A stretch of 64,000 nt of DNA. Source: an uncultured bacterium (GTDB lineage Bacteria > Oederibacteriota > PGYV01 > Palsa-1178). The notes under the pieces were generated by a model. The model was not told the DNA's origin and ran no database searches. It was given only the letters and a program-made list of their open reading frames with translations. This document shows positions 7,578 through 55,621 of the stretch, in pieces (position 1 is the stretch's first letter; each line of letters opens with the position of its first letter). Location of the stretch: positions 62,001 to 126,000 of the forward strand of contig CALAOR010000064.1 of NCBI GenBank assembly GCA_937889595.1, written 5' to 3'. Both the position numbers and the translations under genes were made by a program.

Positions 7578-7640
7578 GCAACCTTTATCCGTAACGTTTT
7601 GCTTATACGGACTATAGGGTTGCGGAACTTGAATTAACGG
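7578..7640 (+). repeat. Dispersed palindromic repeat B, copy 1
   Basis: Imperfect hairpin whose outer arms are GCAACC and GGGTTGC and whose inner arms are TATCCGTA and TACGGACTATA. The same element recurs at 24484, 46168 and, inverted, at 46251. The downstream flank is also shared (TTGCGG, two bases, then YTTGWAYTRA), so the unit is about 55-65 nt. Here it ends at the ribosome-binding site of pfkA. The rest of the 7464-7577 spacer shows nothing recognisable. Confidence 0.85.
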
Positions 7641-13912: not shown

Positions 13913-15057
13913 CCCAGGGATACCTTCTTTTTAAAATATGGTCTTATTGCCATGAAAACAAGAAGCAGCAGCCCAAAGCCGACCAGGAATATATTGGGCA
14001 GCCAGACAGCCAGAAAATAATTCCACTGTCCCTTGTACCCGTAATTTTGCCCGGTCGATAACAGCACGTAGTATATGAATATGAGCACCAGGGAAAAGGC
14101 GATGCCGCCTATACGTCCGCCTTTTTTTGTCATCAGCCCGAGCGGTATGCCGACTATGGCAAAAGCGATGACCGCGAATGGTATGGAAAATTTTTTATGA
14201 AATTCAATGAAAAGCCAGTTTTTGTCATGCTTGCTTTCTTTGCCTTTTTTTATTTCTGCGGCGATCTCTTCGCCTGTCATTTCCCGGGTGCCTTTTATGT
14301 CATCCGGTTCGTTCCTGTTCTTAAACAGGCCCTTTATGTCAAGGTCGACATAGTTCGTATTATAAAAGATCTGGCTTAATTTGTCCGGGTCCGCGTATGA
14401 ACCAAGCTGTATGATGCCGTTTTTAAGCTTCAAAGCGAGCCTGTAGCTTTTATCGTCGTTGATTATTTCCCCTTCGCGGGATAAGATAACTTTAGCCGGG
14501 GTGTCGGGGCTGGTATTGTCCTTGACAAAAACTATCACATTTTTAAGCAGGTCGTTTTTGCTGTCCTTGTCGCCTATATAAAACACATAATCGTCAAAAC
14601 TATTGATGAAAACATGTTTCTGGATCAGCATTCCCGAGCGTTTCTGGATAATGTCATAATATATTTTTTTGTAAGTCAGGTTGGCGGCGGGCAGTACGTA
14701 ATTATTGAACAATATCATTATTATTGTCACAAAAACAGCGAGGTATATGGAAGGCAGCACTATTGATCTTACGCTGATGCCCGAGGCCTGCATGCCGTGG
14801 TATTCGTTGTCCTGCACTATCCTGGAATAGGTGAGCAGGATGCCCACTAAAAAAGCCATGGGTACCGTGACTGCGACTGTGGAAGGCAGCAGCAATATAA
14901 GCAGCTGTCCGACCTTGAAAAGGCTGACCCCGTACTCTATGACAAGGTCGCTCATGACAAAAAGGGAGTTCATTATAAGAAAGAAAGTAAAAATGAAAAA
15001 ACTAATCAATGACACCATGGATACTTCCTTGATTATACTTTTATTAAGGATCTTCAT
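13909..15057 (-). CDS. lptF: LptF/LptG-family lipopolysaccharide export permease, upstream copy
   Basis: 382 residues, same fold as its downstream neighbour: helices near 13-35, 55-78 and 98-120, a periplasmic domain with VILSREGEIINDDKSYRL, then C-terminal helices with FSIPFAVIAFAIVGIPLGL, a strongly conserved family stretch. The pair is translationally coupled. Presence of LptFG implies an outer membrane with LPS or a similar glycolipid. The 108-nt spacer upstream holds the tandem repeat G. The LptF/LptG split is by order, not by sequence. Confidence 0.87.
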   Translation of the reverse strand: MKILNKSIIKEVSMVSLISFFIFTFFLIMNSLFVMSDLVIEYGVSLFKVGQLLILLLPSTVAVTVPMAFLVGILLTYSRIVQDNEYHGMQASGISVRSIVLPSIYLAVFVTIIMILFNNYVLPAANLTYKKIYYDIIQKRSGMLIQKHVFINSFDDYVFYIGDKDSKNDLLKNVIVFVKDNTSPDTPAKVILSREGEIINDDKSYRLALKLKNGIIQLGSYADPDKLSQIFYNTNYVDLDIKGLFKNRNEPDDIKGTREMTGEEIAAEIKKGKESKHDKNWLFIEFHKKFSIPFAVIAFAIVGIPLGLMTKKGGRIGGIAFSLVLIFIYYVLLSTGQNYGYKGQWNYFLAVWLPNIFLVGFGLLLLVFMAIRPYFKKKVSLG

Positions 15058-15108
15058 TTTAATTTTATTCCTTTTTTTATCCGGTTCCGCCCGAATGAAA
15101 GACGCGGC

Positions 15109-15165
15109 CCCCGCCGAAGCTTTAGCGAAGGAGGGGCACCCCGCCGAAGCCTTGGCGAAGGAGGG
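15109..15165. repeat. Tandem GCCGAAGC-type hairpin repeat (family G)
   Basis: Two adjacent units, 15109-15136 and 15139-15165, each of the form CCCCGCCGAAGC, TTTA or CTTG, then GCGAAGGAGGGG. Each can fold by CCCC/GGGG and GC/GC pairing. They fill the gap between lptF and the glycosyltransferase. Near-identical short units occur, as I recall, in spacers of many environmental bacterial genomes. Confidence 0.8.
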
Positions 15166-16614
15166 TTATTTTAACCCTTCAAAATAGTCCATATAATATT
15201 TTCTCATGCTTATGCCCGGTATTGCAACATCAATTTCTTTGGTGAAAATCCGGGTCTTGAAAAATTCCGCCATTTCCCAGCTCTCCCATGGTTCAGAGTA
15301 AACAAACAGACAGTTAAAGCCATGCAGTTTTTCATAGCCGGTCCAGAACCTGTAATTTTTGTTTGACTCGTGTTTGATAAGAATATAAAATTCCGGCTGT
15401 TTTGGCATGTAAAAACCGAGCAGGCTTGACATCTGGTAATGCCGTGAAGAAAGAAAAGTCCTGTCTTTCGCGGGAAGCCTTTGGTACTCGGCGTCAACCC
15501 CGGCAGCGAGTTCTTTAAAACCGTAGGTTTTTTTCAGAGGATTGTATTTTTCGGGAATAATAAAAATCGGGTTGACTGCCTGGATAAATGCAAAGATAAT
15601 TATCAGCATGCCCGACAATATGACAGCGGGAGAAACAACGTTGAAAATGCGTGTTTTTAACGACGAGAGATAGCCGGTTGCCAGGAAGAAAAGGGGCAGG
15701 AAGGTAAAAGCCGGCCAGTTGGCCTCAACCCTGTTTTTTAAGCTAAGTATGAAGAACGGAATGATTGTGACCCAGAAAAGGGTGGCAAAAGCAAAATCTA
15801 AATTAAACGCGGGTTTTTTTATGTTTTTAATGAAAACCGGGATGAAAAGAATAAATAACATCGGCGAGATAAGTCCGGCCTGCGATCCTAACAGCTCGAT
15901 AAAAAATTTAAGCGTAAAGCCGGATTGTGAGCCGCCGCGGATGAACAGGTACTTGACAGTCGCAAAGTCATGGACAAAATTCCAGTATATATAAGGTAGC
16001 GTAAGAAGAACGGTGAAAAGGGTAAAAAAAATGAAACCCTTCAGGTACTTTTTAAAAGTCCCTGTCAAAAGGAGAAATGTCGCCACCCCAAGATACACGG
16101 TTCCCATGGTCAGTTTTGACATTATGCCAAGGCCGAGTAAAATGCCGGCGTGCCCCCAGTGTATGTTGTTTTCCGGTTCTTCTATGATATAAGTCAGGCT
16201 ATAAAGGAATAAAGCGTAAAAGAAGACCATGACAGTGTCGTGCATCATTAAAACCGAACCAATCGCATAGATTAGCGATGAGTTCATTAAAAGCGTGTTT
16301 AAAAGGTTCTCTTTGTCAGCCGTGTCGGAGGGTTTAAATCTTTTATATGTGAAATACGCCGTGATCATGGTTGCAAGAGATAATAGCACTGCTCCAAGCC
16401 GTATGGTGAATACGGTGTTTATTTTAGTGAAAAATGTAAAGATCCAGATGACCAGTGCCGTCATGGGCCCCTGTTCATAATAGCCCCAGTCAAGATGCCT
16501 GGCCCACTGCCAGTAATAAGCCTCATCCCCGAGCAGAGGGAGATAATTGATATATATGAGGCGGATCAGCGTAATTATGCCAATAATGATAAAAATCAGG
16601 TGCTTGTTTTTCAT
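15166..16614 (-). CDS. GT39-type polyprenol-phosphate-sugar glycosyltransferase (ArnT/PMT-like membrane protein)
   Basis: 482 residues with about 10-11 hydrophobic segments. The first luminal loop has LPLLGDEAYYWQWARHLDWGY: the D-E and following Tyr/Trp pattern is the glycosyltransferase family 39 signature (dolichyl/undecaprenyl-phosphate-sugar users such as ArnT). Further LMMHDTVMVFFYALFLY is typical too. AAGGAGGACC precedes ATG. Such enzymes add a sugar or aminoarabinose-like group to lipid A, proteins or glycans; the acceptor cannot be told. Transcribed toward lptF, consistent with an envelope role. Confidence 0.85.
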   Translation of the reverse strand: MKNKHLIFIIIGIITLIRLIYINYLPLLGDEAYYWQWARHLDWGYYEQGPMTALVIWIFTFFTKINTVFTIRLGAVLLSLATMITAYFTYKRFKPSDTADKENLLNTLLMNSSLIYAIGSVLMMHDTVMVFFYALFLYSLTYIIEEPENNIHWGHAGILLGLGIMSKLTMGTVYLGVATFLLLTGTFKKYLKGFIFFTLFTVLLTLPYIYWNFVHDFATVKYLFIRGGSQSGFTLKFFIELLGSQAGLISPMLFILFIPVFIKNIKKPAFNLDFAFATLFWVTIIPFFILSLKNRVEANWPAFTFLPLFFLATGYLSSLKTRIFNVVSPAVILSGMLIIIFAFIQAVNPIFIIPEKYNPLKKTYGFKELAAGVDAEYQRLPAKDRTFLSSRHYQMSSLLGFYMPKQPEFYILIKHESNKNYRFWTGYEKLHGFNCLFVYSEPWESWEMAEFFKTRIFTKEIDVAIPGISMRKYYMDYFEGLK

Positions 16615-16642
16615 GGTCCTCCTTGAGTAATATGATACATAT

Positions 16643-16671
16643 AATATAAAACATTAATGGCTTATGGACAA
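16643..16671 (-). promoter_or_regulatory. Sigma70-type promoter of the GT39 gene
   Basis: Read on the minus strand: TTGTCC, 17-nt spacer, TATATT, ending 28 nt before the start codon. Both boxes match 4-5 of 6 consensus bases and the spacing is ideal. Confidence 0.6.
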
Positions 16672-16720
16672 GGGAAATTTAGGGGGGCAGAGGGGATAGA
16701 TTATACACTGCCTGAAAAGT

Positions 16721-16925
16721 CCTTAATGATAGGTCGCGTCCGGTGCGGATGAAATTTTTCTATGGATTGTGCGCTTGTATTATAAGGGTTTTAGTGGCGC
16801 ACAGGCCATAGAAAAATTTCATCCGCACCGGACACGATAAAGAATTTCATGGATTTATGGGGTTTTCCGGCAGCATTATTTATCAGTGTTAATACATTTT
16901 TCATGCAACTTTAATGGCCCTGCAA
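16721..16925. repeat. Structured repeat A, copy 1 (long covarying hairpin)
   Basis: The core 16735-16836 is a 31-bp stem with one mismatch (left arm ends TTTTTCTATGG, right arm begins CCATAGAAAAA) around a 40-nt middle that has its own 7-bp stem TGTGCGC/GCGCACA. Copy 2 is at 21481. The lead-in CCTTAATGATAGGTCG and the unpaired loop TATTATAAGGGTTTTAG are conserved between copies. Trailing fragments (TTTTCCG, CATGCAAC) are also shared, so the unit may reach about 16925. Lies in a 608-nt gene-free divergent spacer. Confidence 0.9.
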
Positions 16926-17036
16926 TGTCCAATATAACGTAGAGGTTCTTAAATAGTTAAAAAAATGTGAAGATTCACGAAATAAAGATAACCCGGCCTT
17001 AAGCAAGCCGGATATTGTTCTTTGTGCTATTTCCCT

Positions 17037-17067
17037 AAAAAAGCCCCTCAAAAAGAGGGGCTTTTTT
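17037..17067 (+). terminator. Bidirectional intrinsic terminator without an obvious upstream gene
   Basis: Stem GCCCCTC/GAGGGGC with an AAAAA loop, flanked by six A on the left and six T on the right, so it works on either strand. It sits between divergent genes, where neither neighbour needs termination. Confidence 0.85.
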
Positions 17068-17070
17068 ATA

Positions 17071-17115
17071 GGTCAAAACATTAAGATAGTAGAAAGCAGA
17101 GAGTAGTGGGTCAAA
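17071..17115. repeat. Stutter repeat H, copy 1
   Basis: GGTCAAAACATTAAGATAGT then AGAAAGCAGAGAGTAGTGGG. Related copies at 51326, 51575 and 55414 share GTCAAAACATT and runs of AGTAGA/GAGTAG. Confidence 0.7.
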
Positions 17116-17206
17116 TACAAGAAAAGCCGGGTAGTGGCGGCATATTATGCCGCCACCGGGGGAAACGTGAAGTTGGTTAATTATTTGTGGAAATTTATAC
17201 GATTTA

Positions 17207-17215
17207 TGCTATCAT
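17207..17215 (+). promoter_or_regulatory. Extended -10 promoter of the DEAD-box helicase gene, possibly leaderless
   Basis: TGCTATCAT is an extended -10 (TGn plus a 5/6 hexamer). Its end is 8 nt before ATG at 17223, where transcription would be expected to begin, and no ribosome-binding site precedes that ATG. A -35 (TTGTGG at 17185) is poorly spaced. Confidence 0.45.
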
Positions 17216-17222
17216 ATATCAC

Positions 17223-18425
17223 ATGACAAACACAGAAAACAATTTTTATGGCCTGGGGATTGCGCCGGGCTTGATCGAAGTAATAGAAAAACTTAAGTTT
17301 ACAACTCCTACGCCCATACAGCTTAAGGCTATACCCATAGGCATAGAGGGCAAGGACATCATAGGCATAGCGCAGACCGGCACGGGTAAGACGCTTGCTT
17401 TTGGCATTCCTTTGGTCCAGCGCTTGGCGCTTACTACAAAGGGAAAAGGGCTTATAATCGTCCCCACCAGGGAACTGGCCGTACAGGTCAATGAAACCAT
17501 CATGAAACTCGCGCCTGCCGGCGGAATGAAAACAGCGGTTTTAATAGGCGGGGAATCCATGTATAATCAGATCAATGATTTAAAAGCCAACCCGCGCATA
17601 TTAATCGCGACACCCGGGCGTCTTTTGGATCATATTGAAAGACGTACGGCCAGGATAGATGATGCATGCATACTTATTCTTGATGAAGCCGACAGGATGC
17701 TTGATATGGGTTTCATGCCGCAGATAAACCGCATACTCAGGATGATACCCAAGGAAAGGCAAACCATGTTATTTTCAGCGACCATGCCTTCAAGCATAGT
17801 TTCAATCGCGTCAAACCACATGAAGCTTCCGGTCAGGACGGAAATTGCCCCTCAGGGAACAGCATCTGATCTGGTATCGCAGGAAGTTTTGGTTGTGAAA
17901 AAGGAACTCAAGGCAACGGTTCTACTTGAACTTTTAAAGAAACACACGGGGTCGATACTTTTATTCACAAGGACAAAAAGAGGCGCGCATAAAGTTGCAC
18001 AGGCTTTAAGGAACGCCAATCACAGGGCGGCGGAAATACACTCGGACCGCACCATGGCCCAGCGCAAGGAAGCACTGGCTGGTTTTAAATCGGGAAAACA
18101 CAGGATACTTGTGGCAACAGACATAGCCGCAAGGGGTATAGATGTAACCGGTATAGAGGTGGTTATTAATTATGACCTGCCTGATGACCCTGAAAATTAC
18201 GTCCACCGTATCGGCCGCACAGGCAGGGCCGGTCTAAAAGGGCATGCCATATCGCTCGCAACGCCTGACCAGCGCAGCGATTTGAAAAGCATAGAAAACA
18301 TCATAAGGACAGCGATTCCCATATCCACACCCGAGAATCTTCCGATTGCAAAGTTTGATGCCGCATTGCCGGCGTTTTCAACGGGAAGAAATTCCAGGGG
18401 CAGGGGCCGCGGTTATAGGGTTTAA
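17223..18425 (+). CDS. DEAD-box ATP-dependent RNA helicase (RhlE-like)
   Basis: The track start (GTG 17187) lies upstream of the likely promoter; ATG 17223 gives 400 residues. Motifs in order: Q-motif region TTPTPIQLKAIP, Walker A AQTGTGKT, PTRELAVQ, TPGRLLD, DEAD box LDEADRMLD, SAT, then the second RecA domain with ARGIDVTGIEVV and HRIGRTGRAG. A short Arg/Gly tail (SRGRGRGYRV) probably helps RNA binding. These enzymes unwind short RNA duplexes in ribosome assembly or RNA decay. RhlE is the closest pattern, but assignment among RhlE/CshA/DeaD is not certain. Confidence 0.9.
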   Translation: MTNTENNFYGLGIAPGLIEVIEKLKFTTPTPIQLKAIPIGIEGKDIIGIAQTGTGKTLAFGIPLVQRLALTTKGKGLIIVPTRELAVQVNETIMKLAPAGGMKTAVLIGGESMYNQINDLKANPRILIATPGRLLDHIERRTARIDDACILILDEADRMLDMGFMPQINRILRMIPKERQTMLFSATMPSSIVSIASNHMKLPVRTEIAPQGTASDLVSQEVLVVKKELKATVLLELLKKHTGSILLFTRTKRGAHKVAQALRNANHRAAEIHSDRTMAQRKEALAGFKSGKHRILVATDIAARGIDVTGIEVVINYDLPDDPENYVHRIGRTGRAGLKGHAISLATPDQRSDLKSIENIIRTAIPISTPENLPIAKFDAALPAFSTGRNSRGRGRGYRV

Positions 18426-18554
18426 ATTGCCATAAGTCGCATGGCAAAAGGGACGGTTTAAAATTCGGCGCGGAACGATTCAGGCACAAAGTCACAGATT
18501 GCAAACCTAAAAATCCGGCTGGAAAACAAAATTTTATCTTACGGAGGCATCGTT

Positions 18555-19016
18555 ATGAAGAATTATGTTAAAAATGTTTTAATTTTAGCGTTGTTTCTTT
18601 TTGCTTTGGGCGGATCCATGCTGCATATGTATATTCATCCGATCGCAAAACACTCATATGGCTGGGTTCCGCTTATATCCACGGTTGTCAGTGTCGTGGT
18701 TATACCTTTGTTGTTCATGTTCCGCAAAACAATTCACTGGGCTTACATTCTTAACGGTTTTACGGCAATTGTCGGCGTGATAACTATGGCGCACTTTTCA
18801 ATTGTAAAGTCCCCGATAATCCCGGACATTCTGGTGCTTTTAGCCAAGCTGTATGTGGGCCGCGCGATTTTTTGCGTTGAAATCTTCCAGATGGAAACCG
18901 AAGCTTTTAAACCGACTTTGCTCCAATACATCCGCTACCCGCATATGGGTTTTTGGTACGCGCACTTTATACTGCTTTCCCTTGTGTATTTCCTCGGGAA
19001 TTTATTGTGGAGGTAA
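18555..19016 (+). CDS. Hypothetical four-helix membrane protein
   Basis: 153 residues with hydrophobic segments near 6-27, 38-58, 66-88 and 130-150 and short loops. ACGGAGGCATCGTT precedes ATG. Histidines sit near several membrane edges (HMYIHP, HWAYI, HFSIV, HMGFWYAH), which could bind heme or metal, but no family is recognised. A 32-residue membrane ORF follows 5 nt later, suggesting a two-component membrane unit. Confidence 0.75.
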   Translation: MKNYVKNVLILALFLFALGGSMLHMYIHPIAKHSYGWVPLISTVVSVVVIPLLFMFRKTIHWAYILNGFTAIVGVITMAHFSIVKSPIIPDILVLLAKLYVGRAIFCVEIFQMETEAFKPTLLQYIRYPHMGFWYAHFILLSLVYFLGNLLWR

Positions 19017-19021
19017 GATAA

Positions 19022-19120
19022 ATGGACAAATTTAAATTTTTAAAGCCGTTGTGGTTTGTATTGCACATAATTACGATACCTTTTATGTTCTGGCTGGGGC
19101 ATATAGTTAAGTTTAAATGA
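19022..19120 (+). CDS. Small single-helix membrane protein, 32 aa (below track cutoff)
   Basis: ATG follows the previous stop by 5 nt, with GGAGGTAAGATAA (partly the end of the upstream gene) as ribosome site. Sequence: a basic start MDKFKFLKP, a hydrophobic helix with LWFVLHIITIPFMFWLGHIV and a KFK end. Good spacing, basic ends and a His-containing helix like its neighbour argue for a real small protein, but the length alone allows chance. Confidence 0.5.
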   Translation: MDKFKFLKPLWFVLHIITIPFMFWLGHIVKFK

Positions 19121-19189
19121 CCTTTTCCGCATTAGCAAAGTACTAGCGCAAATCTTACCCTATTCTATTTCCAGGCTTATTAACGCGTC

Positions 19190-19218
19190 TTGTTAAATAC
19201 CCCTGTATTGTATATAAT
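19190..19218 (+). promoter_or_regulatory. Sigma70-type promoter of the GH44 gene
   Basis: TTGTTA, 17-nt spacer, perfect TATAAT. Transcription should begin near 19225, about 7 nt before ATG 19232. The overlap with the track's TTG start at 19190 shows that start is wrong. Confidence 0.75.
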
Positions 19219-19231
19219 ATTAACGGAACAC

Positions 19232-21391
19232 ATGTCTGCGTATATTGTCCAATATTTGCGGCGTTTAAAGCCCGCGTTGAGGTGCTGTTTGAAACGGATA
19301 GTATTCGCAACCACAGTCATCATAGTGATTGCTGCTTCAACTTACGCGGCGACCATCACAATTAATACAAATAATACCCGTTTGGCGATAAGCCCATACA
19401 TATATGGGACAAACCAGCAGATGGAAGGCGATGAGAACCTGACTATTATGCGTTTGGGCGGCAATCGTATGACCGCGTATAACTGGGAAAATAACGCTTC
19501 AAACGCCGGTTCTGACTGGTACCAGTCAAGCGACGATTATATGTGCACAGCCATTGAATATCCGCTGTCCGCCACTGAATGCGCGTCTTCCTCGTCAGGC
19601 GTGGTCGATCATTTTGTGGAATACAGTTTAATTCATGGATACAAGTCCATAGTAACCCTGCCCATGGCAGGTTATGTGGCGGCGGACAAGGCCGGAGATG
19701 TCCTCGCGGCCGATACAGCGCCTTCAGCCAGATGGAAGGTACAGGTTCCAAAAAAGGGCAGCGCGTTCCAGTACCCGCCTGACACAACTGATAATTACGT
19801 TTATGACGACGAGGAAGTGTCGCACCTGGTACAGAAATACGGCAATGCAGTTTCAGGCGGGGTTAAGATATACCAGCTTGATAATGAAGGCGATATATGG
19901 AATGCGACACATCCCCTGGTGCATCCCGCGCTTACCGGAGCTGCTGAATGGGTGACGAGAGGTACGGCCCTGTCAAAAGCCATAAAGGACGTGGATGGGA
20001 CTGCGGAAGTATTCGGCCCTGTATTTTTCGGTATCTGGTCCATGTTAAGCCAGGGAAATGACTGGAATGTGGTCAAAGGCAGCCATCAGTGGTATGCTGA
20101 GTATTATCTCGACCAGATGAAACAGGCAAGCATTGCTGACGGCAGGCGGCTTTTGGACGCTATAGATATTCATTATTATTCCGAGGCAAGGGAAGGGCTT
20201 TACCCGCCATTTACATATTCTGTGCCTACGCCCACGCCGGCGCCGTGCAGGATAACTGAAGGCGGCTGCACCTCGGTTCTGGCCCAGCAGGCAAGGCTTC
20301 AGGCTCCAAGGTCTCTTTGGGACCCTGCTTTTACCGAAAACAGCTCTGTAGGGCAGTGGTGCGGCGTGGCCCTGCCGCTTATACCAAAGGTCCAGGCGGC
20401 GATTGATACATATTATCCCGGGACTAAAATAGCGTTCACCGAGCACGCGTTCGGCGGTGGAAACGATTTTTCCGGCGGTATTGCAACTGCGGACTCACTG
20501 GGCATTTACGGGAAATACGGGGTATATGTCGCGACGTTATGGAAGACCGATTATGGGTTGTTTCACTCAGCCGCGTATAAACTGTACAGGAATTATAACG
20601 GAACTTTCGGTACTTACGGGGACACCAAAGTTTACTGCGAATCAAACGACATACCGAACATGACAACGTACGCATCCATAAGCTCGACGGACGATTCCGT
20701 TGTCCATATAATTATTTTGAACAAAGCGGCTGCCGCGCAGACGGCAAATGTAAATATAACAAGCCCGCAGGCGTATACCACGGGCGAAGCATGGGCTTTT
20801 GGAGGCGCGGCTTCCGCAATCACGCTGAGGTCCGCCCCTGTTATCTCCGGAAATTCGTTTTCATATTCTGTGCCGGCGTATTCGGCATTTCACTTTGTTT
20901 TAAAGGCCGGCGCAACCCCGGCCAATACGCCAAGCCGGACAGCCACGCCGACTGAAACAAGCGCATTTACATCCACAACAACGCCGACTGCAACCGGGTC
21001 TATCACAGGCACTCCGCCGACTGAAACAATTACGCCTGCAAATACGCCGACTCCGACACCAACACCCATACCTTCCGTTACGGAACCTGTTTATGGCCCG
21101 GAAATAGTTTATCCAAATCCGTTCAACCCTGACGGCATATATGATCTGCAGTTTGGCATTAACGTGGCAGCAGGCACGTCCAGCGTGAAATTATTGATCT
21201 ATACGATGGGGTTCAGGCTGATTAAGTCCATAGAACTCGGAGCAAGCATGCCCGGATTGGTAATAAAACCTGTAAGCCGGACTTATCTGCAGGGCCTCTC
21301 CGAAGGCATGTATTTATATGTAATAAAACAAGTTAATGCTTCCGGAGATGAGACAAAAAGCAGGATAAAAAAGTTTATAATAATAAAGTGA
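19232..21391 (+). CDS. Secreted GH44 endoglucanase/xyloglucanase with Thr/Pro linker and C-terminal sorting-like domain
   Basis: 719 residues from ATG 19232, with a long basic signal peptide ending near ASTYAA. The catalytic part (about 40-555) carries LGGNRMTAYNWENNASNAG, a glycoside hydrolase family 44 hallmark. Candidate acid/base is Glu219 (YQLDNEGDIW) and nucleophile Glu404 (FTEHAFGG). GH44 cuts beta-1,4-glucans such as xyloglucan and carboxymethylcellulose. A Thr/Pro linker (PTPTPTP) leads to a C-terminal beta domain starting VYPNPFNPDG, the pattern of Por-type/FlgD-like secretion or surface-anchoring tails. Followed by hairpins D and repeat A2, then a sigma factor gene. Confidence 0.9.
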   Translation: MSAYIVQYLRRLKPALRCCLKRIVFATTVIIVIAASTYAATITINTNNTRLAISPYIYGTNQQMEGDENLTIMRLGGNRMTAYNWENNASNAGSDWYQSSDDYMCTAIEYPLSATECASSSSGVVDHFVEYSLIHGYKSIVTLPMAGYVAADKAGDVLAADTAPSARWKVQVPKKGSAFQYPPDTTDNYVYDDEEVSHLVQKYGNAVSGGVKIYQLDNEGDIWNATHPLVHPALTGAAEWVTRGTALSKAIKDVDGTAEVFGPVFFGIWSMLSQGNDWNVVKGSHQWYAEYYLDQMKQASIADGRRLLDAIDIHYYSEAREGLYPPFTYSVPTPTPAPCRITEGGCTSVLAQQARLQAPRSLWDPAFTENSSVGQWCGVALPLIPKVQAAIDTYYPGTKIAFTEHAFGGGNDFSGGIATADSLGIYGKYGVYVATLWKTDYGLFHSAAYKLYRNYNGTFGTYGDTKVYCESNDIPNMTTYASISSTDDSVVHIIILNKAAAAQTANVNITSPQAYTTGEAWAFGGAASAITLRSAPVISGNSFSYSVPAYSAFHFVLKAGATPANTPSRTATPTETSAFTSTTTPTATGSITGTPPTETITPANTPTPTPTPIPSVTEPVYGPEIVYPNPFNPDGIYDLQFGINVAAGTSSVKLLIYTMGFRLIKSIELGASMPGLVIKPVSRTYLQGLSEGMYLYVIKQVNASGDETKSRIKKFIIIK

Positions 21392-21404
21392 TACTGCCGG
21401 AAAA

Positions 21405-21480
21405 CATGCAATGTACCTTGAGCTACTGCGAATGGTACATTGCATGCCATGTACCTGAGCTACTGCGAATGGTACATGGC
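21405..21480. repeat. Two adjacent hairpins with a shared loop (family D)
   Basis: Hairpin 1 (21406-21445) pairs ATGCAATGTACC with GGTACATTGCAT; hairpin 2 (21446-21480) pairs GCCATGTACC with GGTACATGGC. The loops are the same, TGAGCTACTGCGAAT (one extra T in the first). The A-T pair of the first is a C-G pair in the second, a compensatory difference. They begin 14 nt after the GH44 stop and lack a T-run. Confidence 0.9.
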
Positions 21481-21715
21481 CTTAATGATAGGTCGTGTCC
21501 GGCACAGGTCAAATTTTTCTATGGATTGGCCGCCCGGTATTATAAGGGTTTTAGTGGCGCCAGGCCATAGAAAAATTTGACCTGCACCGGACACGAAAGG
21601 AAACACGTCATATTAATGAGGGATTTTCCGACAGTATCAAAGCAGGCAGTTAAATGCCGGGTTCCGGCATAGAGCGCATATCCTGACAATATCCTAAATT
21701 CATGCAACCTTTTTA
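21481..21715. repeat. Structured repeat A, copy 2
   Basis: Core 21494-21595 is again 102 nt with 31-nt arms (TTTTTCTATGG / CCATAGAAAAA) and a 40-nt middle containing the same loop TATTATAAGGGTTTTAG. Relative to copy 1, three stem positions changed on both arms so that pairing is kept and two changed on one arm only. The start abuts hairpin D2. Together with D it fills the 387-nt spacer before the sigma factor gene, with the rest showing only a GCC-rich fragment and the promoter below. Confidence 0.9.
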
Positions 21716-21733
21716 TGCAGTCATGCATTATAA
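21703..21733 (+). promoter_or_regulatory. Candidate ECF-sigma-type promoter of the sigma factor gene
   Basis: TGCAACC followed by TTTTT, 17 nt after it ATTATAA. TGCAACC/TTTT resembles -35 boxes of ECF sigma regulons (AAC core). A second TGCAACC-TTTT with ATTCTAA at 16-nt spacing lies at 22347, before the partner gene. Autoregulation is inferred. The same stretch also contains TATAAT (21729-21734), so a sigma70 reading remains possible. Confidence 0.4.
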
Positions 21734-21778
21734 TATTGGAGTCAGATTCAAGTATAAAACAAGGATGGGAGACTGTAT

Positions 21779-22411
21779 TTGGATAAAGACGCTGAAAAAG
21801 TAATGGTAGAAGAGGCCAGAAAAGATCCGGCTGCTTTTGGCAGGATATTTGAGGCCTATTACCAAAAGATACTCAGTTATTCCATATACCGCACCATGAA
21901 CGTGGAGATCGCCAGGGACATCACATCCGAAACATTTTTTAAAGCCCTTAAGAACCTTTGGCAGTTCAAATGGACCCTTGCCCCGTTTTCTTCCTGGCTT
22001 TACCGCATAGCCTCCAATGAAATAAAGATGTATTTCAGGCACCGCAAATATGAGCCGAAATCCATGGAGGAAGCCATAGAAGAGAATAATATGCCTGAAT
22101 TAGCCTCCCGTAAAGATCTTGAGAAAGAGGTTATGCAGGCGCAGGAGAAACTCGACGAAAACGGTGACCTGGCAAAGGTCATGCGGACGCTAAGGGAACT
22201 CCCGGAGAAATACCAGGAAGTTATAATGTTCAGGTTTTACGGTGAAATGAAAATAGAGGAGATAGCGGAAACACTTAACAAAAAGAAAGGCACTATAAAA
22301 TCTATCCTTTCAAGGGGAATGAAAATGCTAAAGGAAAGGTCAGCCATGCAACCTTTTCCTGGCACAGGCATTCTAAATATGAAAGAGCAAATGGAAGTGG
22401 AGGTAAAGTGA
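21779..22411 (+). CDS. ECF-type RNA polymerase sigma factor
   Basis: 210 residues from TTG 21779 (GGATGGGAG upstream); ATG 21803 is an alternative. Region 2: FGRIFEAYYQKILSYSIY and ARDITSETFFKALKNLWQF (the D-x-x-x-E/D-x-F helix for -10 recognition). Region 4: LPEKYQEVIMFRFYGEMKIEEIAETLNKKKGTIKSILSRGMKML, a clear helix-turn-helix for the -35. There is no region 1.1 or 3, as in ECF sigmas. The linker between regions 2 and 4 is long (about 60 residues, charged). The next gene starts 1 nt after the stop and has the layout of a membrane-bound anti-sigma. Confidence 0.9.
   Translation: MDKDAEKVMVEEARKDPAAFGRIFEAYYQKILSYSIYRTMNVEIARDITSETFFKALKNLWQFKWTLAPFSSWLYRIASNEIKMYFRHRKYEPKSMEEAIEENNMPELASRKDLEKEVMQAQEKLDENGDLAKVMRTLRELPEKYQEVIMFRFYGEMKIEEIAETLNKKKGTIKSILSRGMKMLKERSAMQPFPGTGILNMKEQMEVEVK
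22347..22376 (+). promoter_or_regulatory. Second TGCAACC promoter-like motif inside the sigma gene 3' end
   Basis: TGCAACCTTTT, then ATTCTAA at 16-nt spacing, 37 nt before the anti-sigma-like ORF. Coding constraint (residues AMQPFPG) may explain it, so confidence is low. Confidence 0.25.
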
Positions 22412-22412
22412 C

Positions 22413-23222
22413 ATGGAAGACAAACTGAAAAAAGTTAAAGAGATTGAGCTTCCAAAGAACAAAGAATTTTTAAAGTCGATAATTATGGCCCAAACAGCCA
22501 AAAATGCCGCCAAAACTGCGCGGCTTTCTTTTAATATGAAGTTTATTCCGGTTTTTGCGGCGGTTATCGCGATCGCAGCCGTGGGGCTGTACATGAAGGT
22601 TGATTATAATAATTCGAATTCGCAGCGTAATGAGCTTGGCGGAATATGGTGCACTTATGATGACCGTGCAACGGGAGGCACCTCCAGCGTCTGGCCGCCG
22701 GCATCCACATCGTGCGAGAACCTTTTCGTAAAAAGCGCGCCGGGTTACGGCGGCAGGGGCTATGCCGTGCGGATCACGGGTACGGCAGGAACATCCACGG
22801 GGTCAGATTATATTGGCGTGAATACTTTTTTAAGCGAGTATTCATCATGCCCCCACTGCAACGGCATAGATATAAGGAAATTCCACGGCATTGAGTTCAA
22901 AATAAAGGGATCGGTTACAGCGGGAAAAGTTATGTTCATAATTCCGCATGAAGGAAAGGCGGCGGATAAAAATCTGAACACATGTGGCAGCCTGACTGAT
23001 TATGCTGATTATGAATCTGATATAACAAAGACGATCACCGCGGACTGGAAAACAGTGCGGCTCGATTTTAAGAAGGATTTCAAACAGCCTGTATGGGCTA
23101 AAAAAGAGAACCTGGTAAGTATTGATGAAGTATTGGCTGACGCGAACCTGATCAAGTGGCAGTACAAGGAAGGCAGGGGGCGCCAGGTGGATATATGGAT
23201 AGATGACCTGCAGTTGTTTTAA
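22413..23222 (+). CDS. Membrane-anchored protein with extracytoplasmic carbohydrate-binding-like domain (putative anti-sigma factor)
   Basis: 269 residues, GGAGGTAAAGTGAC before ATG, 1 nt after the sigma stop. Residues 1-42 are a short, charged cytoplasmic part; 44-62 is one helix (FIPVFAAVIAIAAVGLYM); about 75-269 is a beta-rich outside domain. That domain has the features of CBM11/CIA30-type galactose-binding-like folds (GGIWCTYDDRATGG ... VDIWIDDLQLF), with four Cys that could form disulfides. The layout sigma gene, then inside-helix-outside sensor is that of anti-sigma pairs, and the RsgI proteins of cellulolytic clostridia use the same logic (with SigI, not ECF). No known anti-sigma (ASD/ZAS) motif is seen, so the role is inferred. 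Confidence 0.65.
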   Translation: MEDKLKKVKEIELPKNKEFLKSIIMAQTAKNAAKTARLSFNMKFIPVFAAVIAIAAVGLYMKVDYNNSNSQRNELGGIWCTYDDRATGGTSSVWPPASTSCENLFVKSAPGYGGRGYAVRITGTAGTSTGSDYIGVNTFLSEYSSCPHCNGIDIRKFHGIEFKIKGSVTAGKVMFIIPHEGKAADKNLNTCGSLTDYADYESDITKTITADWKTVRLDFKKDFKQPVWAKKENLVSIDEVLADANLIKWQYKEGRGRQVDIWIDDLQLF

Positions 23223-23252
23223 GTGGAATTAAATCTGAAGAGGAGGTGTTTT

Positions 23253-23921
23253 ATGAAAAAGTTCTTGATTGCGGCAGTAGCGGTAGTTGTGGCGGCGGCG
23301 CTTGTATTCGCGGCAGCTGAAAAATTTGTAGTGGATGATTTTACAGGAGGCAAGGCACAGGCATCATCGGGCGGATGGTGGTACACCTACAATGATGTAA
23401 ATACGGGCGGCAACTCGGAAGTGACGCCGGCGCCGGACAAGTTTGTAATGGCAAAGTCGGTCAATAAATTCGCGGCCAGGATGCAGGGCAAGGTCGGAAA
23501 TAAGCTCGGATGGGATTATGTCGGACTTGGAGTGACCCTGGGTGAAAATTGCGGATGCCCGGGCAAGGCAGAACCGGTCGATTTAAGCAAATTCACCACA
23601 CTTACGCTAAGGATCAAAGGCACCATATCGGGAGGCAGGCTTATCGTTAACCTCCCTTATTCGGACAGCAAATGCGAAAATAACAAGACAAACACGCTTA
23701 CGGAGTGGGCCGATTATGAGATGGCGCTGAATACCAAGCTTACAAAGGACTGGACAACGGTTAAGATCGACTTAAGAAATGATTTTAAGCAGCCGAAATG
23801 GGCAAAAACAATTGTCCCGATCGAAAAAGTCCTTCAGAACGCGCACAACATTAATTTTCATTTTTCAAGTCCTGACGGAGATACAGTTGATTTCCAGGTT
23901 GATACGATAGAGTTTAATTAA
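23253..23921 (+). CDS. Secreted protein with a CBM11/CIA30-like domain, paralogue of the preceding sensor
   Basis: The track starts at GTG 23223; ATG 23253 is better because AAGAGGAGGTGTTTT precedes it and it opens a clean signal peptide ending at FAAAE. 222 residues. The whole mature part is one domain matching the outer domain of the previous protein: GGWWYTYNDVNTGGNSEV, LTLRIKGTISGGRL, NDFKQPKWAK versus its counterpart KDFKQPVWAK. Domain-only secreted proteins of this kind could bind glycan and present it to, or compete with, the membrane sensor. No enzyme motif. Ends before a strong terminator, so it is the last gene of the unit. Confidence 0.8.
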   Translation: MKKFLIAAVAVVVAAALVFAAAEKFVVDDFTGGKAQASSGGWWYTYNDVNTGGNSEVTPAPDKFVMAKSVNKFAARMQGKVGNKLGWDYVGLGVTLGENCGCPGKAEPVDLSKFTTLTLRIKGTISGGRLIVNLPYSDSKCENNKTNTLTEWADYEMALNTKLTKDWTTVKIDLRNDFKQPKWAKTIVPIEKVLQNAHNINFHFSSPDGDTVDFQVDTIEFN

Positions 23922-23935
23922 TAAGCTTCATTAAT

Positions 23936-23968
23936 AAAAAGCCCGGCTTGTAAAAGCCGGGCTTTTTA
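23936..23968 (+). terminator. Intrinsic terminator after the sigma/CBM unit
   Basis: Stem GCCCGGCTT/AAGCCGGGC with a GTAA loop, five A before and TTTTTATT after. Confidence 0.92.
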
Positions 23969-24058
23969 TTATTCATTTTTACCGCAACTTTCCCGTGTTT
24001 AAGCTGTCTTAAATTCAGGGACAGTAAGGTTTTAGGCAGGAAAGCCGGAGGTTTGATA

Positions 24059-24467: not shown

Positions 24468-24483
24468 GTTGTAATTGGATAAT

Positions 24484-24551
24484 GTAGGCGCAACCTTTAT
24501 CCGTAACGCTTTGCTTATACGGACTATAGGGTTGCGGTACTTGTATTGACA
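24484..24551 (+). repeat. Dispersed palindromic repeat B, copy 2
   Basis: GTAGGCGCAACCTTTATCCG, then the ACGCTTTGC turn, then TACGGACTATAGGGTTGCGG. The shared right-hand flank (CTTGTATTGA) runs into and supplies most of the -35 box of the helicase promoter that follows. Confidence 0.88.
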
Positions 24552-27582: not shown

Positions 27583-27770
27583 AAAAAACGTCGTCCGTTG
27601 CATTTTTTTGTTATTCGTAGAGAGGCTGCTTGCTGCCTCTCTGACGCAGGCTTTAAAAACGAAGAACCGTTTTAAAGGGTCAAGGTGAGCGGCAGCAAGC
27701 AGCCGCTCTACAGCTTTTTTTTAATATTGGTTCCGGTCAAAAATCGTATTTATCTTACCCCCAACTGTAG
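27579..27770. repeat. Dispersed palindromic repeat C, copy 1 (extended form)
   Basis: Core 27617-27711: GTAGAGAGGCTGCTTGCTGC at the left pairs with GCAGCAAGCAGCCGCTCTAC at the right. An A-rich lead (CTAAAAAAAACG) starts within the helicase stop codon and a tail ends GGTTCCGG and CCCCAACTGTAG. Other copies: 28505, 29733, 55483. Confidence 0.9.
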
Positions 27771-28504: not shown

Positions 28505-28665
28505 CTAAAAAAAACGTTGCCCGTTGTATTTTTTTGTTATTCGTAGAGAGGCTGCTTGCTGCCTCTCTGACGCAGGCTTTAAAAACGCAGAACCGTTTTA
28601 AAGGGCCGGGGTGAGCGGCAGCAAGCAGCCGCTCTACAGATTTGTTTTTTAAGATTGGTTCCGGT
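28505..28665. repeat. Dispersed palindromic repeat C, copy 2 (extended form)
   Basis: Core 28543-28637, same length (95 nt) as copy 1 and near-identical, including the A-rich lead and the GGTTCCGGT tail. Copies 1 and 2 therefore form a direct repeat that brackets the first toxin-antitoxin remnant. Confidence 0.9.
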
Positions 28666-29388: not shown

Positions 29389-29727
29389 ATGTTTTTGAAT
29401 ACAGCAAATTCAGATGTATTAATTATATTAATGGCACTGTGTTTTGTCATGCTTGTTATAACGATGTTTCGCGAGTATCGCATTAAAGGTGATGGCATTT
29501 ATCTTTATTACATCGGGTTTATTATAGGCAGGCGTATATATTTTAAAGATATAGAGGATATAGAAGTGGTGGAAACAAATCTTAAATATATTATGTTGTA
29601 TAAGGCCAAATTTTTTGGAAGATATGTTAAGATAACTCTGAAGGAAGGCTTGTTTAGAACGATTTTGATTGATGTTGAAAAACCAGAGGAGTTTGTCAGA
29701 AAAGTAATGATTGAAAAGTACCATTGA
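29389..29727 (+). CDS. Small membrane protein with a PH-like (bPH_2-type) domain
   Basis: 112 residues. One or two hydrophobic segments at about 10-25 and 39-50 (VLIILMALCFVMLVI; YIGFIIGRRIYF), then KDIEDIEVVETNLKYIMLYKAKFFGRYVKITLKEG, a beta-rich pattern of bacterial PH-domain membrane proteins (YdbT/DUF304-like). ATG 29389 follows CGAGGTGG closely; TTG 29395 is an alternative. It stands alone between repeats E2 and C3 with no partner genes. AT-rich compared with flanking housekeeping genes. Role unknown. Confidence 0.65.
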   Translation: MFLNTANSDVLIILMALCFVMLVITMFREYRIKGDGIYLYYIGFIIGRRIYFKDIEDIEVVETNLKYIMLYKAKFFGRYVKITLKEGLFRTILIDVEKPEEFVRKVMIEKYH

Positions 29728-29732
29728 TATCT

Positions 29733-29885
29733 CTAGCGAGCCTGCTTGTTGCCTCTTTGATGCAGGCTTTTCGAACTGAGTCCGTCTTGAAGAACCATGT
29801 AGAGCGGCAGCAAGCAGCCGCTCTACAAAAAACTAATCCAAACCGATTCTAAAAACTGACTTTATCTTTGTCCCCAACTGTAGTA
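29733..29885. repeat. Dispersed palindromic repeat C, copy 3 (diverged)
   Basis: Core 29733-29826; the right arm GCAGCAAGCAGCCGCTCTAC is intact while the left arm is worn (CTAGCGAGCCTGCTTGTTGC). The tail ending CCCCAACTGTAG is shared with copy 1, so the unit runs up to the tmk promoter. Confidence 0.8.
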
Positions 29886-46146: not shown

Positions 46147-46167
46147 ACAGACTGTGAGATTTGATTG

Positions 46168-46225
46168 TGTAGGCGCAACCTTTATCCATGTTCCATGGAC
46201 AATAAGGTTGCGGATTTTGATTAAA
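46168..46225 (+). repeat. Dispersed palindromic repeat B, copy 3 (short variant)
   Basis: GTGTAGGCGCAACCTTTATCC as usual, then CATG-TTC-CATG in place of the standard turn, then AATAAGGTTGCGG and the shared flank TTTTGATTAAA. The inner arm CCATG/CATGG replaces CCGTA/TACGG, so pairing is kept. Confidence 0.85.
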
Positions 46226-46250
46226 ATGAAGAAGCAGTGGTTTGGACCGT

Positions 46251-46320
46251 CGTTAGTACAAGAGCCGCAACCCTATAGTCCGTATAAGCAAAGCGTTATG
46301 GATAAAGGTTGCGCCTACAC
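46251..46320 (-). repeat. Dispersed palindromic repeat B, copy 4, inverted to copy 3
   Basis: On the minus strand it reads like copy 2, including the lead GTGTAGGCGCAACC and the flank CTTGTACTAACG. Its outer 21 nt are an exact inverted match to those of copy 3, so copies 3 and 4 enclose a 40-nt centre. The 277-nt ligA-GH57 spacer otherwise holds only the promoter below. Confidence 0.88.
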
Positions 46321-46364
46321 AGGCAATTACAGAAAACCATTACAGTAAAGCGCCCAAAAAAACA

Positions 46365-55455: not shown

Positions 55456-55482
55456 CGAGGGCTCTTGTGTATTTTGGATCTC

Positions 55483-55578
55483 GTAGAGAGGCTGCTTGCT
55501 GCCTCTCTGACGCGGGCCTTACAAACCGAAGAACCGTTTCATGAAGCCAGGGTGAGCGGCAGCAAGCAGCCGCTCTAC
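55483..55578. repeat. Dispersed palindromic repeat C, copy 4
   Basis: Same arms as copies 1 and 2 (GTAGAGAGGCTGCTTGCTGC ... GCAGCAAGCAGCCGCTCTAC). Flanks here are themselves complementary (TTTTGGAT / ATCCAAA). Lies between btuD and btuB, so it could mark a boundary of expression within the B12 locus. Confidence 0.9.
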
Positions 55579-55621
55579 AAAATCCAAATATTGGAATATT
55601 TTATTAAATAAGGAGAACAAT

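Follow-up and report, generated by a model that had tools for sequence, protein, structure and literature searches.

The window, by which we mean the whole stretch of 64,000 nucleotides analyzed here, contains two copies of a long hairpin. Copy 1 is neighbored by a PMT_2-domain glycosyltransferase gene on the minus strand and a DEAD-box helicase gene on the plus strand, and copy 2 by genes for a GH44-domain protein and a sigma-70-type factor, both on the plus strand. These gene calls are ORF-based, and the assemblies used throughout are metagenome bins with gaps within some of the hairpins. The features of the two copies are as follows:

16704..16718, + strand: left terminal inverted repeat of copy 1, decayed (TACACTGCCTGAAAA; four mismatches to GATACTGTCGGAAAA)
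16734..16837, + strand: hairpin copy 1, with outer stem, internal loop, inner stem and loop (sequence, alignment and folding)
16778..16794, + strand: conserved loop TATTATAAGGGTTTTAG of copy 1 (sequence and alignment)
16863..16877, + strand: right terminal inverted repeat of copy 1 (TTTTCCGGCAGCATT; three mismatches)
21390..21404, + strand: left terminal inverted repeat of copy 2 (GATACTGCCGGAAAA; sequence and analysis of units bounded by two terminal repeats)
21405..21477, + strand: two small hairpin modules of the CATGTACCTGAGCTACTGCGAATGGTACATGG type, in tandem inside copy 2
21493..21596, + strand: hairpin copy 2, with a bulged inner stem (sequence, alignment and folding)
21538..21554, + strand: conserved loop TATTATAAGGGTTTTAG of copy 2 (sequence and alignment)
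21624..21638, + strand: right terminal inverted repeat of copy 2 (TTTTCCGACAGTATC; sequence and analysis of units bounded by two terminal repeats)

A preliminary description had placed the hairpins at 16735-16836 and 21494-21595, each of 102 nt with 31-nt arms. These bounds are correct, and in both copies the pairing reaches 1 bp beyond them, giving 104 nt each. The loop that it took to be conserved is identical in the two copies, and the three stem positions that it saw differing on both arms with pairing intact fall at alignment columns 14, 16 and 18 (G-C/A-T, A-T/G-C and G-C/C-G). It overlooked three further stem differences that are one-sided: one is responsible for a C.A mismatch in copy 1, and the other two together produce a tandem C.A/A.C mismatch in copy 2. 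The paired change it reported for the inner stem also holds, with both sides differing (GTGCGC/GCGCAC in copy 1 versus GGCCGCC/GGCGCC with a bulged C in copy 2). The hairpins fold far beyond chance on either strand (z of -7.6 to -13.8), with none of 200 shuffles as good.

The flanks of copy 2, AAAGT and AAAGC, match at four of five positions. The TGA stop codon of the GH44-domain (glycoside hydrolase) gene lies at 21389-21391, and its GA is supplied by the left terminal repeat of copy 2; the gene thus seems to owe its end to the insertion.

The mobile unit and its distribution

Extension of the copies outward from the hairpin revealed 15-bp terminal inverted repeats, GATACTGTCGGAAAA...TTTTCCGACAGTATC. 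Among 55 units bounded by two such repeats, 26 are flanked by an exact 5-bp duplication, as against a mean of 0.77 upon shuffling and 0-4 cases for duplications of other lengths. There are 53 exact sites of ACTGTCGGAAAA in the genome of the window (G000: 3.42 Mb in 93 contigs), and the 15-mer terminal repeat with one mismatch allowed gives 108 matches versus two for a reversed control. The oriented target-site consensus is close to T-ATTTR. Terminal inverted repeats, a duplication of fixed length and many dispersed copies lacking a transposase gene are the hallmarks of a MITE; accordingly, of the functions first proposed for the hairpin, the small non-autonomous mobile element is supported by its terminal repeats and 5-bp target duplications. 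We would class the element as a new MITE family in which the role of the hairpin is putative.

The unit is modular and has relatives. Family E (GCCCGCAAGGGGCGGGCAGCATG..., about 40 copies) combines the same ends with another interior, while family D, found in G003 (see below), is a related element with the ends GGTACTGTCGGAAAA. Certain units have no hairpin (L082, L090 and L083), L125 is a 41-bp end-to-end unit, and some copies carry small hairpin modules or a 75-bp insert inside or beside the hairpin. For instance, in contigs C80 and C88 of G000 (L065 and L066) an insert of about 75 bp occupies the hairpin loop with TAAG at both sides, and part of it equals the start of contig C41.

Beyond the genome of the window, the element is present in two assemblies of the candidate division FCPU426, namely PMTB01 (G001, same genus) and PLPI01 (G003, same family but another genus). 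A covariance model search, with both strands counted, recovered 64, 44 and 38 matches in G000, G001 and G003, respectively, and none in 41 other scanned genomes of the phylum. Likewise, outside these three the loop pattern was absent from the other 42 genomes of the phylum and from viral contigs; across 85,000 species it occurred in FCPU426 and in one Clostridia and one Jordarchaeum match, both of which are presumed to be chance. As far as searched, therefore, the element is confined to one family of FCPU426. Hairpins in a csp neighborhood of two genomes (L070 of G000 and L040 of G003) were considered as candidate orthologous insertions; they lie on opposite sides of the shared intergenic segment and are hence independent insertions. 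L043 and the decayed L061 have a related gene in common.

No autonomous partner turned up in the three genomes, where none of the DDE_Tnp_1, Y1_Tnp and rve loci that were inspected has such ends on its flanks. Nor did both ends occur together on an autonomous transposon among the unpaired terminal-repeat sites, the contig ends or the similar sites of other genomes. One pair of terminal repeats 2.9 kb apart in contig C20 (L071) was rejected as an autonomous element, its enclosed ORFs having no transposase character on inspection. In G000, contig C32 carries an insertion sequence (L211:731-2360) with a single DDE transposase gene (a 487-aa open frame); it sits in a palindrome, is flanked by the 4-bp duplication CAAG and has ends, GAGTCTGTCTCAAAA, that are similar but not equal to those of the MITE.

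Paired change across the copies

Collecting copies for covariance analysis, as the preliminary description had proposed, gave about 90 in all, of which 51 hairpins from the three genomes formed our main alignment. In it, 32 of 39 stem pairs have changed on both sides (19.7 in shuffled alignments) and 95.0% of the stem cells are paired (shuffled 76.7). The covariation score is 0.457, which is about three times the shuffled value (0.141) and about four times the best of the controls in which the structure was slid by 1-3 columns (at most 0.117); as the copies are kin, the shuffled values are not probabilities, while the slid controls preserve this kinship. Thus, the compensatory stem changes first seen between the two copies of the window are far above chance across the 51. 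A further 20 hairpins found by the model outside this alignment have Watson-Crick pairs in 548 of 597 stem cells, although they were picked partly by the model's own pairing, a structural model favoring paired matches. Many of them carry other arm sequences (the GCTGACAAATTTTGCCTCAG type).

The variable arm columns of the G003 copies are just 30% identical to those of the other copies, with the same columns pairing, and the loop is 93% identical between the two genera. Also kept is an unpaired A opposite GG in the internal loop (A34 in 51 of 51 copies, G74 in 51 of 51 and G75 in 50 of 51). Pairing or the entire hairpin has been lost in some copies (L061 and L082).

Constraint or copying, and the strand or level at which the fold may be kept

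In G003, the copies diverge from their own consensus by 0.009 in the loop, 0.022 in the core and 0.066 in the arms, and in their terminal repeats the difference from the repeat sequence derived from G000 amounts to 0.27-0.31 per site; the terminal repeats have thus diverged 10-30 times more than loop and core, though this decay was measured against a single reference end and the excess in G003 may partly be a genus difference. Many G003 ends start with GGTAC. In G000 as a whole, the core divergence (0.117) is little under that of the right terminal repeat (0.158), mainly because several subfamilies are pooled. Since pairing survives in copies with decayed terminal repeats, these data point to a constraint on the fold. 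Gene conversion between copies, instead of selection, could also keep the loop and core.

A different source of the paired changes would be arm-to-arm correction alone, with the hairpin a functionless quasi-palindrome whose arms are copied by template switching in replication, such that pairs change without selection. This process has been published for bacteria and RNA genes (PMC8794818), and it would account for three pairs of near-identical hairpins (L004/L005, L005/L007 and L022/L028) in which a single two-sided change is the sole difference along the entire hairpin; in two cases this is a double transversion (C-G to G-C in L005/L007 and T-A to A-T in L022/L028), which is impossible through a G-U intermediate. 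Of 96 reconstructed double changes, 49 are of the transversion type, with no preference for G-U; these counts are approximate as the tree was built on short recombining repeats. Further, in the pooled and G000 sets arm columns 11-20 differ by 0.37-0.45 per site as against 0.09-0.16 in the adjacent links, but in G001 the left link, at 0.28, varies as much as the arms do. Correction should, however, also remove the A.GG internal loop, in which A34 and G74 are invariant, and the bulged C, and it leaves unexplained both a loop that is conserved between genera while the arms randomize and a loop that outlasts decayed terminal repeats. As the sole process we therefore consider it unlikely. The preliminary description had left selection for structure and arm-to-arm correction as alternatives: the fixed unpaired bases and the fold outliving the ends speak for the former and the double transversions between near-identical copies for the latter, and we think that both operate.

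With regard to the strand, the distinct mismatch states of the main alignment read on the + strand comprise 24 A.C and 11 G.T (p = 0.04), or 20 and 10 (p = 0.10, not significant) without the two commonest columns. The 20 added hairpins have 20 A.C and 8 G.T cells, and the pooled sets give a modest excess of 44 over 19 (p = 0.002); in family D there are five of each. At fourfold sites the coding strand has more T than A and roughly as much G as C, a skew that would not alone produce this excess. In rRNA, 78.5% of two-step changes pass through G-U (PMC8794818). The excess of A.C over G.T on the + strand is the opposite of what is seen in RNA stems and suggests that the fold is kept at the DNA level or on the minus strand.

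This bears on the RNA element that the preliminary description had offered as one option, e.g. a structured + strand RNA that, as a hairpin in a 3'-untranslated or intercistronic region, would act on the ends or the stability of mRNAs. Covariation beyond the controls is as expected of a structured RNA, but a preference for G-U over A-C is not seen, and the mismatch spectrum gives the + strand reading no support; a search of positions 14000-24000 of the window against Rfam returned nothing above the gathering score. In its favor, where the element lies between tandem genes it points in the gene direction in 44 cases versus 3 (p = 2e-10; sets of 32:2 and 12:1, counted with a simple longest-ORF caller), and most G003 copies start a few bases from a stop codon. 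Yet the bias recurs in tandem contexts of family E (15:2) and is equally strong in young (18:0) and old (12:2) copies, which fits oriented insertion, and in a few copies an intrinsic terminator separates the gene from the element. We accordingly regard a + strand RNA as doubtful. Terminators do not explain the orientation either, as a terminator-like hairpin lies upstream of only 5 of 73 sites. Gene-oriented insertion would look no different from insertion oriented by the replication fork; in the window, 34 of 39 long open frames are on the + strand and five on the other. The bias thus offers a testable lead on the site choice of the element. Very improbable, finally, is a hairpin serving as the single-strand substrate of a Y1 transposase (IS200/IS605 or REP-type): Y1_Tnp proteins occur in all three genomes and hairpins are the usual substrates of this class, but it does not make terminal inverted repeats with 5-bp target duplications, and these ends are missing from the Y1 loci that were inspected.

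Taking the evidence on ends, fold and mismatches, we consider the hairpin to be probably, if not firmly, the core of a non-autonomous DDE-type element (MITE) whose fold is constrained, whose changes are partly template-switched and which acts as DNA or on the minus strand. In this MITE, a predicted transposase would recognize ends of the GRTACTGTCGGAAAA form on an element of about 170-250 bp and duplicate 5 bp of the target. Within it, the 104-nt fold-back would present a fixed core, consisting of the unpaired A opposite GG, a CGC/GCG inner stem and an TATTATAA.GGTTTTAG-type loop, on an outer stem of about 33 bp, the sequence of which is almost free while its pairing is kept. We infer that the folded nucleic acid rather than the arm sequence is maintained, with the core resembling a stem-borne recognition site. 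New paired states are probably generated in part by DNA-level copying between arms and are then kept by the constraint, which most likely acts on DNA or the minus strand and not on RNA read from the + strand. A transcribed element would readily show the 44:3 orientation bias, for which the DNA or minus-strand model does not account. More specifically, the loop and the A.GG internal loop might bind a dedicated protein on folded DNA or the minus strand, as part of an orientation-specific (replication or transcription) MITE kept by the host once immobile; this is a tentative proposal of low probability.

Comparison with known systems and other repeats

Bacterial MITEs with a long internal fold-back include the ERIC/IRU, Correia/NEMIS and Nezha types. 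Like them, the FCPU426 element is an intergenic, multicopy unit in the 100-250 bp range with terminal inverted repeats, target duplication, no ORF and a hairpin fold; in contrast to them, its ends and duplication length are different, and its arm sequence is nearly all replaced while the loop and internal mismatch are fixed. Integron attC sites also have a free stem sequence, with the structure and a few extrahelical bases kept, a combination that the element shares. However, it has terminal inverted repeats and target duplications, and an identity as an attC site is not supported: the R/L boxes (RYYYAAC/GTTRRRY) are absent from the alignment as read by eye, and no cassette context was seen. 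With REPINs and REP sequences (PMC3116915; PMC8266576) it has in common intergenic palindromic repeats spread by a host-encoded enzyme, but REP units are 20-40 bp, tied to Y1 transposases and free of target duplications, in contrast to the 5-bp duplications seen here. In template-switch-maintained hairpins of RNA genes, instantaneous double changes likewise keep the stems paired (PMC8794818); the present hairpin, however, is carried by a mobile element and is poor in G-U.

The family offers about 90 natural copies in which the loop is fixed, the paired arms change freely and the terminal repeats provide a rough clock. Such data sets are rare, and this one could help to tell selection on structure apart from correction by template switching; its two-arm changes are well suited as a natural test of the origin of paired changes in hairpins. 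Given that covariation is extreme and the G-U signature is nevertheless missing, strong covariation alone is no proof of a functional RNA.

Two other repeat families were observed in the window: a second hairpin repeat (GTAGAGAGGCTGCTTGCTGCCTCTC ... GAGCGGCAGCAAGCAGCCGCTCTAC) with four copies (27606-27722, 28532-28648, 29722-29836 and 55472-55588), and a third family (GCAACCTTTATCCGTAACG...) of about 62-68 nt that occurs in both orientations (7578-7639, 24483-24550 and 46161-46326).
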